DNA from: a bacterium
GTDB taxonomy: Bacteria > Verrucomicrobiota > Verrucomicrobiia > Opitutales > Opitutaceae
DNA length: 37,629 nucleotides
NCBI GenBank assembly: GCA_021782105.1
Contig: JAJXVO010000006.1
Coordinates: 1 to 37,629, forward strand
Direction of reading: 5' to 3'
In this document: positions 5,541 through 32,481 of the stretch, piece after piece
How the letters are laid out: each line of letters starts with the position of its first letter
How positions within the stretch are numbered: position 1 is the stretch's first letter
The notes under the pieces: generated by a model
The model's input: the letters and a program-made list of their open reading frames with translations, nothing else
Told to the model about the DNA's origin: nothing
The model's database searches: none
Translations under genes and position numbers: made by a program

Positions 5541-5936
5541 ATGCCTCCGGTTCTTGTCATCGATCACCACAACGGCGTGCCCGCGTACCGGCAGCTGATG
5601 GATCAGATCAAGTTCCAGATTGCGGCGGGGGTATTGAAGCCTGGGGAGGAGATGGAGTCGACGCGTGCGCTGTCGGCTTCGTTGTCGCTGAATCCGATGA
5701 CGATCAGCAAGGCGTATGGTCTGCTCGAGCGGGAGGGCGTGCTCGAGCGGCGGCGCGGCCAGACGCTCACGGTACGGGCGGCGGAGGGCGGCCAGGCGGC
5801 GGCGGCGCGCGCGGAGGTCCTGCGCAAGGCGCTCGAGGCGGCGGCGACGACGGCGAGGCAGCTCGGCGTGAGCGACGGGGAGGCCCTGCGACTTTTCAAG
5901 GAAACCCTCAATGCACACCAGCATGAACACGACTGA
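5541..5936 (+). CDS. GntR-family regulator, YtrA subfamily
   Basis: A 131-residue regulator (ATG at 5541) with the short architecture of the YtrA subfamily: an N-terminal winged helix-turn-helix followed by only about 50 residues of helical dimerisation tail, with no large effector domain. HHNGVPAYRQLMDQIKFQI opens the winged helix, STRALSASLSLNPMTISKAYGLLEREG is the recognition region, and VLERRRGQTLTV is the wing. An upstream GTG at 5523 is in frame but lies 4 bp from the predicted -10, so ATG 5541 is preferred. YtrA-type repressors normally control the ABC transporter genes that follow them, as here. The gene overlaps the ATPase gene by 26 bp. Confidence 0.9.
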   Translation: MPPVLVIDHHNGVPAYRQLMDQIKFQIAAGVLKPGEEMESTRALSASLSLNPMTISKAYGLLEREGVLERRRGQTLTVRAAEGGQAAAARAEVLRKALEAAATTARQLGVSDGEALRLFKETLNAHQHEHD

Positions 5937-6837
5937 CACCCTGACCGAGGTGCGCCCGGTGGTGGCGCGCAATGTGACCAAACGTTATGGCCGGCACACG
6001 GCCCTGAAAGGCCTGACACTCGACCTGCCCGAGGGGCGGGTGGTGGGCCTGCTCGGGCGCAACGGGGCGGGGAAATCGACCCTGCTCAACCTGGCCAGCG
6101 GACTGATCCTGCCCAGCGAAGGCACGATCGAGACGCTGGGTGTTCCGACGGTGGATCTCGACACCCCGCAGCTCACGCGTCTGGGCGTGGTGCAGCAGGA
6201 GGGGCGGTGCATCGAGTGGATGACCGTTCGGCAGCACCTGGATTTCAACGCCTCGTTTTACCCGGGGTGGGATCGCGATCTGGAGCGGCGGTTGACCGAG
6301 GCGCTGGAGGTCGATCCGAAGCGCCGGATTGCTGAGCTGAGTCCCGGAGATCGTCAGAAGGTGGGAATCCTCCTGGGCGTGTGCCACCGCCCCTCGCTGC
6401 TCCTGCTCGACGAGCCCGCGGGGGCGCTGGATCCGATCGTGCGCATGCAGCTGCTGGACGTGCTGCTCGAGCGGCTCCGGGACGACGGGTGCACGATGGT
6501 GATCTCCTCGCACCTGCTCAGCGACGTGGAGAAGATCGTCGACTGGGTGATCGCGCTTGATGCGGGCGAACTTGTGGAGAATGCGGCCTATGACGAGCTG
6601 CAGGAGAGTTTCGCCGAGTGGACCGTGCTGCCCCGGCGGGGCGAGCTTCCGGGGCAATTCGACGAGCCCTATGTCCTGAGCCGGGAGGGCAACTGGCGTC
6701 AGGCGGTGATGCGGGTGCGCACCGCGGAGCCCGACGCCGCCGCGCGCTTCGCTGAGCGGCACGACGTCGAGGTGCGGTCGCGCCCGCTGAACCTGGAGGA
6801 GATGTTTCCGCTGATCACCCGCAAGAGGACGACGTGA
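5911..6837 (+). CDS. ABC transporter ATP-binding protein (YtrB-like)
   Basis: A 308-residue ABC ATPase with all the expected motifs: Walker A GRNGAGKST (about 49-57), Q-loop in VVQQEG, a signature variant LSPGDRQKV (143-151), Walker B LLLLDEP (163-169), the D-loop GALD, and a switch His in VISSHLL. The 90-residue C-terminal extension is typical of drug- or peptide-export ATPases that pair with separate membrane subunits. ATG 5911 is preferred over ATG 5923 because AAGGAA lies 7 nt before it. The gene overlaps the repressor gene upstream, and its stop overlaps the GTG of the next gene (GTGA), so translation is probably coupled. It should drive the large membrane proteins encoded downstream. 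The substrate is unknown; YtrA/YtrB-type systems often respond to cell-envelope antibiotics. Confidence 0.93.
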   Translation: MHTSMNTTDTLTEVRPVVARNVTKRYGRHTALKGLTLDLPEGRVVGLLGRNGAGKSTLLNLASGLILPSEGTIETLGVPTVDLDTPQLTRLGVVQQEGRCIEWMTVRQHLDFNASFYPGWDRDLERRLTEALEVDPKRRIAELSPGDRQKVGILLGVCHRPSLLLLDEPAGALDPIVRMQLLDVLLERLRDDGCTMVISSHLLSDVEKIVDWVIALDAGELVENAAYDELQESFAEWTVLPRRGELPGQFDEPYVLSREGNWRQAVMRVRTAEPDAAARFAERHDVEVRSRPLNLEEMFPLITRKRTT

Positions 6838-8330
6838 ATCTCCGAACCTATTTCAAGATCCTGCGCCCCACGGACGTCGCCGCTTTTGCGGGCGTCGAGG
6901 TCCTTTTGGGCTGGGTACTCCTACACGCGGCATTTCCGTCGCATCCGGAAGTGATACGGCTGCTGATGTGCCTGGTGGTCGCGCCGTTGGTCGTCGGTCG
7001 GGGTCTGCTCTGGCCGCTCGAATACGTCCTACATCAGGGAGGGTGTGCGTGGATGCCCGGCGTCGATCGTGCGTTCTTGCGAGTCCATGCCGTGGCATTT
7101 GTGAGCGCGGCGGTGCTGCTGACGGGCGTCTGTGCGTGGGGACTGCCCGGGCATTCGGTCGCCCTTTCGGCGGGGATGGTCGTCACGCTGCTGGCCTTGC
7201 CTCTGTATTTCGAGCGTGGGTCCTCGCGGTGGTTCGATTCGTGGCGCATGGGAGCGGTGGCCTTGAATGCGGTTGCGGCGGCCTGCGTGCTCGATCTGGA
7301 CCGCGAGACGCAGACGGTCGTTGGTCTGGCGATCTTTTCCGTTTCGATCGTCGTCGCCGTTCGGGGCTTCCGCCACTGCTTCGACCGCAGGCGTGTCCTC
7401 GCGCGGGGACGGCGACCGTACGTGCACTACCAGATGCTGGTCATGGCGGCGCTGGAACTGAGGCGGGCGGCGGGCGTCCTGGTGCGGCGGAGAAAGGGCG
7501 CGTCGTCAGCATCGCAATCGTGGCCGCAGGAGCCCGTGGACGACTCGCTTTGGTTGTGGCTGAAGACGCTGTTCTGTATCCGTTTCGGGAATACCAAACG
7601 CGCGGTGAAAGGCTTCCTGGCGAGCGCGCTGATTTTCGGACCGGTGTTCGTGCTGGTCGGTGGTGGCCTGCCGCTGTTGAATCCGCAGGGGAGCCACGAG
7701 GGACTGAGGCGCGGGTTTGAGGCTCTGCGGACCGGGGGGCTCGCCATCCATCTTGGAGACTCGATCCGAGGAACGCTCGAACAGATGTACCTGGTGCTTG
7801 GTTTCGTGGTGGCCCAGATGAGCAGCACCGCACTTCCCCGCCTCCGCCTGCCGGTTTCTCGTCGTCGCTATGCCGACTACGCCTGCATGTTCTCGTTGTC
7901 GATCTGCGCGGTGTTGCTGGCGGCGTTCTTTCTCTCGGCCAGTGCGACGCTCCTTGGCGTCGATGCGTTGGTCGAGGGCTCGCCCCACCTGGCGGTCCTG
8001 TATCCCTTCGCGCTCATCACGCTGCTGATACTCTCCGCGCTGCCGATCGCGTTGGCCCTTGGGGCGGGAATTCGGCTCGCCCTGGCGAACCTCACAAGCC
8101 GGCTGGCCTATTACGTTCCGCTTGTCTCGATCGGGATCGCGATGTCTGTGGCTGCGCTGATGGCTACCCTGCCGCTCCAGTTCGAGAAACAGGACGGTCT
8201 GGCATTTCTCGTGGCCTGGGCGGTGTTCGGTGGAGGAATTGGAGCCTGGGCGTATCGCGCGGTTCTGCGCAGGGATTTCCGGGTGGCCGACCTCACTGTC
8301 ATCGAAACGAGATCGGGACGCATGATTTGA
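6834..8330 (+). CDS. Large polytopic membrane protein, putative ABC permease subunit (copy 1)
   Basis: A 498-residue integral membrane protein with roughly twelve hydrophobic segments: six in residues 14-175, a polar cytoplasmic loop of about 70 residues rich in Arg and Lys (about 180-255), then about six more. The GTG start overlaps the ATPase stop by 4 nt, so it is almost certainly the membrane partner of that ATPase. It begins MNLRTYFKILRP, almost the same as the next gene product, and both carry an RGF...FDRR.V.AR motif after the sixth segment, so the two are paralogues. I do not recognise a named family; the size and layout recall ABC-2-type permeases fused or expanded to twelve helices. 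Assignment as a permease rests mainly on context. Confidence 0.75.
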   Translation: MNLRTYFKILRPTDVAAFAGVEVLLGWVLLHAAFPSHPEVIRLLMCLVVAPLVVGRGLLWPLEYVLHQGGCAWMPGVDRAFLRVHAVAFVSAAVLLTGVCAWGLPGHSVALSAGMVVTLLALPLYFERGSSRWFDSWRMGAVALNAVAAACVLDLDRETQTVVGLAIFSVSIVVAVRGFRHCFDRRRVLARGRRPYVHYQMLVMAALELRRAAGVLVRRRKGASSASQSWPQEPVDDSLWLWLKTLFCIRFGNTKRAVKGFLASALIFGPVFVLVGGGLPLLNPQGSHEGLRRGFEALRTGGLAIHLGDSIRGTLEQMYLVLGFVVAQMSSTALPRLRLPVSRRRYADYACMFSLSICAVLLAAFFLSASATLLGVDALVEGSPHLAVLYPFALITLLILSALPIALALGAGIRLALANLTSRLAYYVPLVSIGIAMSVAALMATLPLQFEKQDGLAFLVAWAVFGGGIGAWAYRAVLRRDFRVADLTVIETRSGRMI

Positions 8331-8351: not shown

Positions 8352-9845
8352 ATGAACGCTCGAACCTACCTGAGAATCCTGCGGCCATTTCGGACCTTGC
8401 TGTTCGTGGGCCTCTACGGTTGGTGCGCCTGCCTGGAGGTCGCCGGCCTCCTGCATGACCGAATGCCAATTGTCTGGTTTGTAACCTTGGTGGCCGTGGG
8501 GCCCTTGGTGGTCGGTGCCTTCTTGCTGGGGCCCTTGCACGAGGTGATGCACACGACGGTCGCTGGCGTCGTGCCGGGGCTGCACCGTGCGGCCGCCCAG
8601 TGGCATGTCTCTGCGCTCGCGGTGGCGCTGGCCGGGCTGGTATTCGCGGCGCGTGCGGCGAGTCCGGCCATTTCATGGCAGGCGGACGCGGGTCTGACCG
8701 CCGCGTGCCTGTCGCTTCCCTTGCTCAACCGACGGAGGGATCTGTTTCCCGGGTTCAGGGCGGGAACGCTCGTGACGATCCTGCTCGGGATTCTACTGGG
8801 ATTATTGGGAACGAGGCTTTATTGGCTCTGCCTCCGGGAATCGTGGCCTGTCTTTCTCGTGGGCGTGACGGTGGCCTTTGTCTGTTTGCGGCGCGGCTTT
8901 GATCGTCGCGAAGTTCGTGCGCGGGCGCGTGGAGAGAGACCGGTGATCTGCCCCCAATCGTCGATATTCATGGGCAGAGCCGTCGCGCGGACGCGGCAGC
9001 GCGAGTGGATGCGTCGCTCATGGACCTCCATGCCCGTCTCGAAGAGACGGTGGAACTACAGTTCCTCGGACCGATCGCTTCGGCGCTGGCTGGCGACCGT
9101 GCATTACGTATGGTTTCCGAGCCGACTCCGGTCTGTGATTACGAATATATGCACCGTTGCACTTCCTCCGCTGGCCGTGATGACATTCACTTTTTGTGCG
9201 GCAGTGGATGCCAATAGCGGGCACCTCGCGGGCCTGGGAGTACAGCTGGGCAACACCTGTGTGCAGGGTTTTGGCAGTGGAAGGCCGGTGAATGTATTTT
9301 TAGGAATACCGGTGGCATATGGAGCCCTGGCGATGACGGTCCTGACAATCATCATGTCGCTCCGGCGTGCGCTGCCCTTTCCGCTGGGGCGCGTCAGGAT
9401 GGCGTCCGTCCTGGCAACTTACACCCAAGTGTATGGCTTGGCGCTGCTCATTGTCGGCACCTCGTTCACAACGGTCCTGACTTTGGCTTTGCTTCACCTG
9501 TTGGGTGAGCCGGTTCGCTGGCTCGATTTGACCCTGCCGGTTGCCTGCCTGATCGCATTGGTTCCGACATTCCTGTTCTCATTGGCCATTGAGGCCATGG
9601 CGCGGGGACGGGCCGGCATCGTGATTTGGAGTGTCATTGCACTTCTCTGCCCATTCCTGGTCGTGACTGGCGCCTCCTTCTTTGTCGGCCCGCTGCTTTC
9701 ATTTCCAGGAGTGACCGCATGCATGACAACGACGCTTGCGTGTTGGGCGTTCCACCGCTGGGTTGTGCGCCGTTCGTACCTCACGTCGGACCTCGACGGC
9801 TCGACCTCGAGTGCCAAGGAGCTTTTCTGGGGCAGTCGCGACTGA
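8352..9845 (+). CDS. Large polytopic membrane protein, putative ABC permease subunit (copy 2)
   Basis: A 497-residue membrane protein starting 21 bp after copy 1 and nearly equal to it in length. It shares the N-terminal MNARTYLRILRP, the cytoplasmic motif RRGFDRREVRARARG after the first membrane block, the central basic loop and the second helical block. Outside these anchors identity looks low, which suggests an old tandem duplication and a heterodimeric transporter. Copy 2 has a longer basic linker with repeated Arg-Trp pairs (about residues 215-255). No strong ribosome-binding site is visible, and coupling to the upstream gene is likely. Function as a permease is inferred from its position after an ABC ATPase. 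Confidence 0.73.
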   Translation: MNARTYLRILRPFRTLLFVGLYGWCACLEVAGLLHDRMPIVWFVTLVAVGPLVVGAFLLGPLHEVMHTTVAGVVPGLHRAAAQWHVSALAVALAGLVFAARAASPAISWQADAGLTAACLSLPLLNRRRDLFPGFRAGTLVTILLGILLGLLGTRLYWLCLRESWPVFLVGVTVAFVCLRRGFDRREVRARARGERPVICPQSSIFMGRAVARTRQREWMRRSWTSMPVSKRRWNYSSSDRSLRRWLATVHYVWFPSRLRSVITNICTVALPPLAVMTFTFCAAVDANSGHLAGLGVQLGNTCVQGFGSGRPVNVFLGIPVAYGALAMTVLTIIMSLRRALPFPLGRVRMASVLATYTQVYGLALLIVGTSFTTVLTLALLHLLGEPVRWLDLTLPVACLIALVPTFLFSLAIEAMARGRAGIVIWSVIALLCPFLVVTGASFFVGPLLSFPGVTACMTTTLACWAFHRWVVRRSYLTSDLDGSTSSAKELFWGSRD

Positions 9846-10575: not shown

Positions 10576-11640
10576 TCAGGCGCGCTTGAGTTCGAAGAAC
10601 AGATCGGCGCCTGAACCGGGTTTCCCAGTGATCTGGAGTGTGGAGCCGTGGACATTGAGCAGGGCCTCGCTGATACGCAAACCGAGCCCGAGCTTCTTTT
10701 TCTGGGCATCGCTCAGATCGCTGTTCCTGAGTCGGAGAAGGGGGAGATAGACGTCGGGGTCGAGACCGCAACCGTTGTCCTTGACGTGGATCTCGCAGGT
10801 GGCGCCCTTGGATACGGCGGACACGACGACGCGGCCCTTGGGTGGGGTGGCCTTGATGGCGTTGGCGACGAGATTATTGAGCACCTGGGCGAGACGGTGG
10901 GAATCGCCGAGCACGGAGATATCGGTCGGCACGAGCTCCAGGGCGATCTGGCGTTGGAGGGCGGCGACGCCGAGGGTGTCGTGGACCTCGAGCCAGAGGA
11001 AGGGAATCGGGATGGGTTTGGAGGAGATCTTTGCGTCGCGGATATCGTCGAGGAAGGCTTCGAGGAGGCGACGCACCTGGCGCAGCTGACTGTCGGTGGT
11101 GCGCTTGATATTGTCGATCAGGGGCCGGCTCTCGATGCCGATGGAGGGGTCGGTCAGCAGGAGTTCGGATGTGAGGCTGATGCCGGTGAGCGGCCCGCGG
11201 AAATCCTGGGCGATGCTGGAGGTGACCCGTTCCTTGAGGCTGGTGAGGCGTTCGAGCGCGGCGAGCTGCCGGGACGCGGCCTGCATGAGCTGATCGGCTT
11301 CGTCGGAGGCTGGCGAGGAAGCGTTGGGCGGGGGCAGGGATTGGTTTGCGGCGGCCAGGGCGGCGAGCGTTGCGCGGACCGGGGCGAGGAGTGCGTGCAT
11401 GCACCAGGCGGCGAGGCCGACGGCTAAGATCGCACCGGCAATGGTCCAGAGAGCTTCGTGTAGAAAACTCGGATGGCCGCCCGACAGGGCGAAACCGAGA
11501 AGGGCGGCGGCAGGGGGCAGGACGATTCCCAGGACGGCGACAGCGACGAATTTTCCGGTGTAGGAGGAAGGGAAGGGCCAGCGACTGCTCCAACGGTGGA
11601 TCGGGAGGTCGTGATCGGATTTCATGCGAAGAGAGCTCAC
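10576..11640 (-). CDS. Sensor histidine kinase homologue lacking the phospho-accepting His
   Basis: A 354-residue membrane protein (GTG start at 11640; ATG 11625 is an alternative). Two hydrophobic segments near the N-terminus (about 30-52 and 63-88) are followed by a HAMP-like or linker helix, a dimerisation region and an ATPase domain. The ATP-binding boxes are intact: N-box LNNLVANAIKAT (254-265), G1 DNGCGL (288-293), G2 GLGLRI (318-323). The H-box, normally SHELRTPL, reads AQDFRGPL here: the catalytic His is Gln145 (codon at 11206-11208). It therefore cannot autophosphorylate by the usual route. No response-regulator gene is adjacent. It may be a pseudokinase, act as a sensory partner of another kinase, or be a degenerate copy. 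Confidence 0.82.
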   Translation of the reverse strand: MSSLRMKSDHDLPIHRWSSRWPFPSSYTGKFVAVAVLGIVLPPAAALLGFALSGGHPSFLHEALWTIAGAILAVGLAAWCMHALLAPVRATLAALAAANQSLPPPNASSPASDEADQLMQAASRQLAALERLTSLKERVTSSIAQDFRGPLTGISLTSELLLTDPSIGIESRPLIDNIKRTTDSQLRQVRRLLEAFLDDIRDAKISSKPIPIPFLWLEVHDTLGVAALQRQIALELVPTDISVLGDSHRLAQVLNNLVANAIKATPPKGRVVVSAVSKGATCEIHVKDNGCGLDPDVYLPLLRLRNSDLSDAQKKKLGLGLRISEALLNVHGSTLQITGKPGSGADLFFELKRA

Positions 11641-11886: not shown

Positions 11887-13122
11887 ATGAATAAACGTCG
11901 TGTCGTAGTCACAGGACTGGGTGTTGTCGCCTGCAATGGCATAGGTGTCGACGAGTTTTGGCGTGCAAACCTGGCAGGTCGGTCGGGAATCACCCTCATC
12001 GATGCCTTTGAGACGGATGATTTTCCATCAAAGGTCGGGGGCCAGGTGCGCGGTTTGGAACCGGCAAAGTACATGCCGCCCGAGACGGCGCGCCGGGTGG
12101 ATCGTTTTGTGCACCTGGGGCTGGTGAGTGCGGAGTTCGCGCTACAGGACAGCGGGCTGAAGCTCGAGGAGGAGGACCGGGACCGCATTGGCGTGATCAT
12201 CGGTTCGGGGTTTGGAGGCGCCTTTTTTCATGAGGAACAGCTGATTCAAGGCTTCGACAAGGGGGCGCATCGGCTCAATCCGCTTGCGGTTCCGCGCATC
12301 ACGCCCAACGCGGTGGCGAGCCAGATGGGCATTCGCTATGGGCTGCGAGGGCCGAACATGGTCATTTCCACGGCCTGCGCGTCGTCGGCCCATGCGATTG
12401 GCGAGGCGTTCAGGAAGATCCAGTATGGCGAGATCGACACCTGCCTGACGGGCGGAGCCGAGGCGCCGATGACGCGATTCAATTTTGGCGCGTACTGCGC
12501 ACTGCGGGTACTTTCGAAGACGATCGACGATCCTACGCGGGCGTCGCGGCCTTTTGACCTGACCCGTGAGGGCTTCGTGATGGCCGAGGGCGGGGCGGTG
12601 CTGATCCTCGAGGAGCGTGAGCGGGCGATTCGCCGCGGGGCGCGCCTGCTGGCGGAGGTCGTCGGCTATGCGAGCAATTCCGGCGCGCACCACATGGTGA
12701 TGCCGGACCCGGAGGGCGGCGACGCGGCGCGCGTGATGGCGGCGGCGATCAAGGACGCGGGCCTGACGCGGGTGGACTACATCAACGCGCATGCCACCTC
12801 GACGCAGGCGAACGACGCGGCGGAGACACGGGCGATCAAGGCGGTTTTTGGCGATGAGGCGTACCGGATCCCGGTGTCCTCGACCAAATCGATGATCGGG
12901 CATTCGCTCGGGGCCGCGGGGGCGATCGAGGCGGTGGTGAGCGTGAAGGCGCTGATGCACCAGATCGTCCCGCCGACGATCAACCTGCGCACACCGGACC
13001 CGGTCTGCGACCTCGACTATGTCCCCGACGAGAGTCGCGCGATGAAGGTCAGGACGGTATTGTCGAATTCCTTTGGTTTCGGAAACTGCAATGCGTCCCT
13101 CGTTTTTTCGGAAGCCACTTAA
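11887..13122 (+). CDS. Beta-ketoacyl-ACP synthase II family protein (FabF-like)
   Basis: A 411-residue thiolase-fold condensing enzyme that elongates an ACP-bound acyl chain with malonyl-ACP. The catalytic triad is complete: Cys164 in STACASSAHAIG, His302 in NAHATST and His339 in KSMIGHSLGAAG, with Lys334 also present, matching E. coli FabF spacing. Length is that of FabF. The gene is followed after 5 bp by an ACP gene. It could be the housekeeping fabF. The FabF-then-ACP order, and the position opposite an aminotransferase/phosphatase/hydrolase operon, also fit a dedicated secondary-lipid locus. The 246 bp upstream, shared with the divergent kinase gene, hold a TATTCT that could be a -10, but no matching -35 is clear. 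Confidence 0.92.
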   Translation: MNKRRVVVTGLGVVACNGIGVDEFWRANLAGRSGITLIDAFETDDFPSKVGGQVRGLEPAKYMPPETARRVDRFVHLGLVSAEFALQDSGLKLEEEDRDRIGVIIGSGFGGAFFHEEQLIQGFDKGAHRLNPLAVPRITPNAVASQMGIRYGLRGPNMVISTACASSAHAIGEAFRKIQYGEIDTCLTGGAEAPMTRFNFGAYCALRVLSKTIDDPTRASRPFDLTREGFVMAEGGAVLILEERERAIRRGARLLAEVVGYASNSGAHHMVMPDPEGGDAARVMAAAIKDAGLTRVDYINAHATSTQANDAAETRAIKAVFGDEAYRIPVSSTKSMIGHSLGAAGAIEAVVSVKALMHQIVPPTINLRTPDPVCDLDYVPDESRAMKVRTVLSNSFGFGNCNASLVFSEAT

Positions 13123-13127
13123 GAATC

Positions 13128-13382
13128 ATGACACCCCAGGAAATTGAGAAGAAGGTTGTCGACATTCTCTCGAAGAAGTTCGGCACCGAGCCATCCAAGA
13201 TCTCGCCTGAAACGCGACTCGCCGAAGACCTCGGCGTGGACTCGTTTGGGGCCGTCGAACTGATGTTCGAACTTGAGGAGGCATTCAACCTGAAGATCGC
13301 GGACAGCGATATTGAGCACATCAAGTGCGTGAAGGACATCGTCGACTATCTGGTGAACTGGACGGCGAAGAAGAGCGAGTAG
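13128..13382 (+). CDS. Acyl carrier protein
   Basis: An 84-residue acidic four-helix acyl carrier protein. The phosphopantetheine attachment site is Ser39 in GVDSFGAVEL; housekeeping ACPs usually have DSLDTVEL here, so helix II is somewhat divergent. The remainder (FELEEAFNLKIADSD, then VKDIVDYL) is standard. It starts 5 bp after the ketoacyl synthase stop and will be cotranscribed and probably translationally coupled. It is a carrier for the condensing enzyme. Whether it is the main cellular ACP or a specialised one cannot be told from this window. Confidence 0.93.
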   Translation: MTPQEIEKKVVDILSKKFGTEPSKISPETRLAEDLGVDSFGAVELMFELEEAFNLKIADSDIEHIKCVKDIVDYLVNWTAKKSE

Positions 13383-31230: not shown

Positions 31231-32481
31231 ATGCCCGAGTCGCCCATTCCGGTTTTGATTGTGGATGACGACCCCTCCGTTGGGGCCTGGCTGCAGCTGC
31301 TTGTGCGTCGCATGGGCGACAGCCTGCGGTGTTCGGCGACGTGGGTGACGACGGGGGCGGTGATGCTGGAGGAGCTGGAGCGGCGGCGTTACGAACTGGT
31401 GCTTTTGGACTACCATCTACAGGACACGGACGGGCTGGTTCTGCTTGGCCGCATCCAGGAGATGCCGAAGGACCGGCGTCCGGCGGTCATCATGCTGACC
31501 GGGGGAGGAAACGAGCAGATCGCGGTGGAGGCGATGAAACGCGGGGCTCGCGACTATCTGATCAAGGCGTCGCTCGACCAGGCGACGATCCGGCGGGCGA
31601 TGACGGCGGCGCTGGAGACGCGACGTCTGGAGGCGGAGCTGGCCCGATCGAACGAGGAGCTGCGCCAGAAGAACGCGCAGATGGAGGCGGAGCTCGCGGT
31701 GGCGCGCGACGTTCAGGAGGCGCTGCTGCCCTCGCAGTATCCGGTGGTGCCAAAGAACGCGGCTCCGGGACAGAGCACGCTGCAGTTTGCGCATCGCTGG
31801 ATCCCGAGCAGTGCGATGGCGGGGGACTTTTTCGAGGTTTTCCCGGTGGCGCACACGGCGGCGGGGGTTTTCCTGTGCGACGTCATGGGCCACGGCGTTC
31901 GTGCCTCTTTGGTGACGGCGCTTATCCGCGGGCTGTTGGAGGAGACGATCGTGTGGGCGGCGGAGCCGGGGCGGATGATGGAGGAGCTGAATCGGGCCCT
32001 GAGGGCGATCCTACAGCGCAGCGACACGGTCCTGTTTGCGACTGCGTTCTATTTGGTGATCGACGCCACGCGCAAGGAACTGAGGTACGCGAACGCGGCG
32101 CATCCGAATCCGATCCTGATCCGCCGGACCGCGGGGGTGGTGGAGTACCTGGCCTCGGCGGGCGGACCCGATCCTGCGATCGCGCTGCTGCCTGATGCCG
32201 ACTATGCCTCGCACTCGCTCATGTTGGCCCCGGGCGACAGCGTGCTTCTGTTCACGGATGGCCTATACGAGGCGGAAACCTCGAAGGGGGAGGCGTTCGG
32301 TGCGGACCGGCTTCTGGCCTCGGTGCGCTCGAGGATGGCGGAGGGAAAGGAGGCGCTCATGGACGGGGTGCTCGGGGATTTGCGCGCGTTCCTGGGCGTT
32401 GAAAAAGGGGCGGCGTTGGAGGACGACGTCTGCATGGTCATGGTGGAGCTGGCGGCGGCGCAGAATTCGGCGGGCGCCTGA
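31231..32481 (+). CDS. Response regulator with SpoIIE/RsbU-type PP2C phosphatase domain
   Basis: A 416-residue two-domain signalling protein. Residues 1-125 are a receiver: acidic pair Asp12/Asp13, phospho-acceptor Asp60 in LVLLDYHL, Thr90 in IMLTGGG and Lys112 in YLIKAS. A coiled linker (126-165) follows. Residues 166-408 are a PP2C-like SpoIIE phosphatase with AMAGDFFEVF (Asp199), LCDVMGHGVRASL (Asp217), LLFTDGLYEA and EDDVCMVMV, all the metal ligands. Such proteins dephosphorylate an STAS anti-sigma antagonist when the receiver is phosphorylated, releasing a sigma factor. No STAS or RsbW-type kinase gene is adjacent. ATG 31231 is close to the receiver fold start. Confidence 0.95.
   Translation: MPESPIPVLIVDDDPSVGAWLQLLVRRMGDSLRCSATWVTTGAVMLEELERRRYELVLLDYHLQDTDGLVLLGRIQEMPKDRRPAVIMLTGGGNEQIAVEAMKRGARDYLIKASLDQATIRRAMTAALETRRLEAELARSNEELRQKNAQMEAELAVARDVQEALLPSQYPVVPKNAAPGQSTLQFAHRWIPSSAMAGDFFEVFPVAHTAAGVFLCDVMGHGVRASLVTALIRGLLEETIVWAAEPGRMMEELNRALRAILQRSDTVLFATAFYLVIDATRKELRYANAAHPNPILIRRTAGVVEYLASAGGPDPAIALLPDADYASHSLMLAPGDSVLLFTDGLYEAETSKGEAFGADRLLASVRSRMAEGKEALMDGVLGDLRAFLGVEKGAALEDDVCMVMVELAAAQNSAGA

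Follow-up and report, generated by a model that had tools for sequence, protein, structure and literature searches.

The gene at 10576..11640 on the minus strand of the window (the whole stretch of DNA analysed, 37,629 nucleotides) encodes a histidine-kinase homologue in which glutamine replaces the phospho-accepting histidine. We consider the likeliest reading, at about even confidence, to be a lineage-specific pseudo-histidine kinase, which would work like DivL, by changing conformation in response to ATP or a signal and by binding other proteins. Its features are as follows, with residues numbered from the GTG at 11640.

10576..11640 (-), orphan two-helix membrane histidine-kinase homologue, 354 aa from GTG at 11640
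11392..11562 (-), two hydrophobic helices, approximately residues 27-55 and 58-83, with a very short loop (hydropathy, alignment)
11206..11208 (-), Gln145 codon CAG, replacing the phospho-accepting His
11194..11196 (-), Gly149 codon GGG at H+4, Ser in three relatives and usually Thr/Asn in HisKA
11059..11235 (-), HisKA (DHp), residues 136-194, Pfam PF00512, 33.4 bits
10585..10908 (-), HATPase_c (CA), residues 245-352, Pfam PF02518, 63.9 bits
10849..10887 (-), N box QVLNNLVANAIKA, with N255, N256, N260 and K263 invariant in 4/4 family members
10765..10785 (-), G1 box VKDNGCG, with D288, G290 and G292 invariant across family members
10678..10692 (-), G2 box LGLGL, with G318-L321 invariant across family members

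The first-pass annotation had placed a Gln codon at the phospho-acceptor position, and the letters bear this out: plus-strand 11206-11208 reads CTG, which is CAG (Gln) on the minus strand, where the gene lies. The H box reads SIAQDFRGPLTGI, and the context of Gln145 is VTSSIAQDFRGPLTGIS. In the HisKA family, Gln is unable to accept a phosphoryl group in the usual way. The annotation's description of intact N, G1, and G2 boxes and no premature stop also held in the alignment and the open frame. There is neither a stop nor a frameshift in the gene, and its GC by codon position (0.66/0.47/0.80) is the same as that of neighbouring genes. The ATG at 11625, giving 349 aa, is probably the better start, based on the length and N-terminus of the relatives, including the length of the nearest one. 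Both domains pass their Pfam cut-offs (26.9 bits for HisKA, 26.4 bits for HATPase_c), and the HATPase_c score falls within the range of the His-bearing relatives (66.1, 60.3, and 83.0). The N box can also be read as QVLNNLVANAIKATP, G1 as KDNGCGL, and G2 as KLGLGLR, all intact. The F box is unrecognisable and the ATP lid short, both features being common to the two nearest His-bearing relatives. The protein thus has both domains and the three boxes of a HisKA-type kinase and lacks the phospho-accepting His. Hydropathy and alignment indicate no extracytoplasmic sensor domain, and a Pfam scan found no PAS domain. Single-sequence structure prediction gave a poor model (mean pLDDT 42), which we set aside. 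A promoter and terminator scan returned nothing beyond chance level.

Relatives were sought in 57 related genomes, then in 252 genomes of the same family, 372 of the order, and 384 of the class; these sets overlap. Three full-length relatives were found among well over 600 genomes searched. G022 (37% identity) and G057 (35%), from one other genus, are the only ones in the 252 family genomes, and a profile search of the 372 order genomes added G329 (29%); the 384 class genomes yielded no further full-length relative. All three resemble the window protein in length, two-helix N-terminus, and DHp and CA layout. They differ from it in carrying His, with Ser at H+4, in 3/3 cases (AHDFRSPL, AHDFRSPL, and SHDLRSPL), and their gene neighbours differ from genome to genome. 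Since His is present in all three, Gln145 is, by this comparison, a derived, lineage-specific change and not a family trait, and a subfamily with conserved Gln was ruled out. The first-pass annotation had proposed checking Gln among orthologues, with His there marking a strain-level mutation or sequencing error. Conservation across the family did fail, yet at just 29-37% identity this points to a lineage-level change and demonstrates no strain mutation. By the usual marks of a pseudo-histidine kinase, the fold is kept and the phospho-acceptor is absent, while the non-His residue is not conserved among orthologues.

Loss of the His among kinases is rare but real. The genome has 63 HisKA matches, and two of the 62 that were read lack the His: the window protein, with Gln, and a hybrid kinase, with Cys. 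An alignment of 104 kinase domains, drawn from the window genome and others, shows His in 99, a gap at that column in three, and another residue in two. Both non-His kinases (2/101 aligned with a residue, ~ 2%) belong to the window genome, though replacing His is no general habit of that genome. A scan of genome contigs found one unrelated kinase, with a normal His. The Cys kinase is a 592 aa PAS-HisKA-HATPase-REC hybrid on contig C54 (L071:1467-3245, plus strand), with H box FLANMSCELRTPL and codon TGC; all its domains score well above the Pfam cut-offs, and the Cys, in a hybrid kinase that is canonical in all other respects, is no less odd than Gln145. These counts also bear on whether CAG is a misreading of CAC in sequencing or assembly, which we judge very unlikely. 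A single transversion would suffice, and the assembly is in 431 contigs, 91% complete and 4% contaminated. Against this, consensus errors at a given codon (assumed at ~ 1 in a few thousand) are far rarer than His-less kinases, and the adjacent change at H+4 could not come from one misread base.

A serious rival, which we hold to be a real though less favoured possibility, is recent loss of function. Here the His codon would have gone lately in an accessory orphan kinase no longer needed, and the remainder of the gene would look intact merely because little time has elapsed. Retention of His in all relatives fits this explanation, as does the patchy distribution of the gene, which is present in 3/252 family genomes and 0/3 same-genus genomes. 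The three same-genus genomes are 83, 81, and 68% complete, and the chance of missing the gene in all of them is ~ 1% if losses are independent. Evolutionary rates were compared in a tree of 42 kinase cores, in which the four family members form one clade (support 88; inner three 99). The branch to the window protein (1.29) is no longer than those to its His-bearing sisters (0.79 plus 0.46 to 0.81). Tajima-type counts of unique changes in the window protein versus G022, with G329 as outgroup, were balanced in DHp (12 v 9) and CA (14 v 17). The membrane part was mildly faster on the window-protein branch (26 v 13, chi2 4.33, one of several tests), which also favours recent loss. From these sequence comparisons, constraint on the kinase core was normal along most of the branch, and the lack of acceleration relative to the His-bearing sisters argues against old, long-standing decay while being silent on recent loss. 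The open frame, normal codon-position GC, and intact CA boxes speak against recent loss, as does the second change at H+4, where GGG lies two base changes from AGC, though Gly also occupies that position in 2/99 His-bearing kinases. The annotation had read the intact ATPase domain without His as selection for a non-canonical role in place of decay. The intact domain stands, whereas selection is weakly supported given His in every relative, and the unaccelerated core weighs only against old decay.

The two altered positions suggest what the protein might still do. Work on CrdS and HK853-type kinases assigns the kinase reaction to the acidic residue beside the His and the phosphatase reaction to Thr/Asn at H+4 (PMC3510030). 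The acidic residue is retained in the window protein as D146. With Gln at H and Gly at H+4, both output reactions are probably weak or absent, which would leave signalling by binding. A role as a dedicated phosphatase for an unlinked response regulator is extremely unlikely in our estimation. A HisKA kinase with His changed to Ala can keep most of its phosphatase activity, as CrdS H371A does, whereas CrdS N375A lost that activity (PMC3510030), and the Thr/Asn required at H+4 is Gly149 here, which also sets the protein outside the HisKA phosphatases. On the pseudokinase reading, an orphan two-helix membrane histidine kinase of a small, patchy family would have lost its phospho-accepting His, now Gln, together with the H+4 residue used in phosphatase chemistry, while retaining the dimerisation helices and the ATP-binding pocket. 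It would not autophosphorylate at the usual site and, judging from its motifs, would still bind ATP. Its output would be the binding of a response regulator or another kinase, switched in DivL fashion by a membrane signal or ATP. A more specific version, which we offer tentatively and think rather unlikely, is a recently neofunctionalised sensor pseudokinase that has lost both catalytic DHp positions, retains a functioning ATP switch, and sends its signal through protein binding alone.

Several observations count against the pseudokinase reading. With His in 3/3 relatives, Gln may be a recent arrival and the gene may be heading for loss. ATP binding is predicted from motifs, and even DivL binds an ATP analogue weakly (PMC4211667). 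There is also neither a partner, an operon context, nor conserved neighbours. The adjoining genes are a DUF2059 gene and a FabF/ACP pair, and also an ABC transporter with two membrane proteins. No response regulator lies next to the kinase gene, as the annotation had said, and just one receiver domain was seen in the whole window, ~ 20 kb off, in a response regulator whose output is a SpoIIE-type phosphatase (31231-32481, plus strand). The neighbours scanned at the G022 and G057 loci, which differ from those in the window, included no kinase or receiver gene; the G329 flanks were read as ORFs only. A partner encoded nearby was thus rejected for the window and these two loci, and the kinase family is orphan wherever seen.

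We also weighed a mixed dimer, in which the protein would use its intact CA domain to phosphorylate a partner kinase in trans on the partner's His and so serve as donor or modulator, and regard this as improbable. Intact CA boxes without the His are the expected make-up for such a subunit, and ChrS-HrrS and RetS-GacS offer precedents (PMC9491836, PMC12189002). However, the genome holds no second family member: the next match, a generic kinase, scores 119 bits against 561 for the first, and the best pairwise match within the genome is 29%, although with ~ 9% of the genome missing a partner could be unseen. No paralogous partner was found, making a family-specific or close-paralogue heterodimer unlikely. 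Of the roles the annotation had named, the sensory pseudokinase therefore remains, while the phosphatase-like role and the close-paralogue heterodimer are disfavoured.

The closest known system for the pseudokinase reading is DivL of Caulobacter crescentus (PDB 4q20), a sensor of DivK~P that has neither kinase nor phosphatase activity (PMC4211667). DivL is the second-best PDB match by sequence. Both proteins have HisKA and HATPase_c with the His replaced (Tyr550 in DivL, Gln145 here), and no kinase activity is expected of either. DivL is alphaproteobacterial, larger, and PAS-sensing, with Thr at H+4 (YELRTPL) and a conserved non-His residue; in contrast, the window protein has Gln in one genome only, two membrane helices, and no CckA/DivK context that we found. 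It is not a DivL orthologue, having two membrane helices, no PAS in the Pfam scan, and Gln instead of Tyr. With architecture, residue, and context all different, the resemblance is a lead and not membership. ChrS_CA-fs of Corynebacterium glutamicum is likewise a membrane histidine kinase turned pseudokinase by a lineage-specific mutation, laboratory-evolved in that case, and signals through another kinase (PMC9491836), as the window protein may. In ChrS_CA-fs, however, the CA domain is broken and the His kept, the reverse of the window protein, and it has a paralogous partner, HrrS, whereas none of the window protein's family was found in its genome. RetS of Pseudomonas aeruginosa (6dk7, among the solved-structure matches) acts by binding another kinase (PMC12189002), which is similar to the proposed mode. 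Unlike the window protein, it is a hybrid kinase that carries receiver domains, and it inhibits GacS.

Taken alone, the protein would be one further case of the already known pseudo-histidine kinases. If the neofunctionalised version is true, one lineage within a small family of otherwise active orphan kinases would provide a natural before-and-after pair for the change from kinase to pseudokinase. Should Gln be real and kept by selection, the active relatives and the inactive member could be used to study that step.

Other genes were observed around the kinase homologue. Tandem membrane proteins of ~ 498 aa (6834-8330 and 8352-9845, plus strand), with no Pfam match, lie behind an ABC ATPase (5911-6837). 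At 11887-13382 (plus strand) there is a FabF-like ketosynthase and, after it, a small ORF whose sequence, with DSFGAVEL, resembles that of an acyl carrier protein. Beside this pair, on the opposite strand, lie an aminotransferase III, a HAD-type phosphatase, and an alpha/beta hydrolase. Because the genome carries another FabF, 49% identical, the region may be a secondary biosynthetic set.
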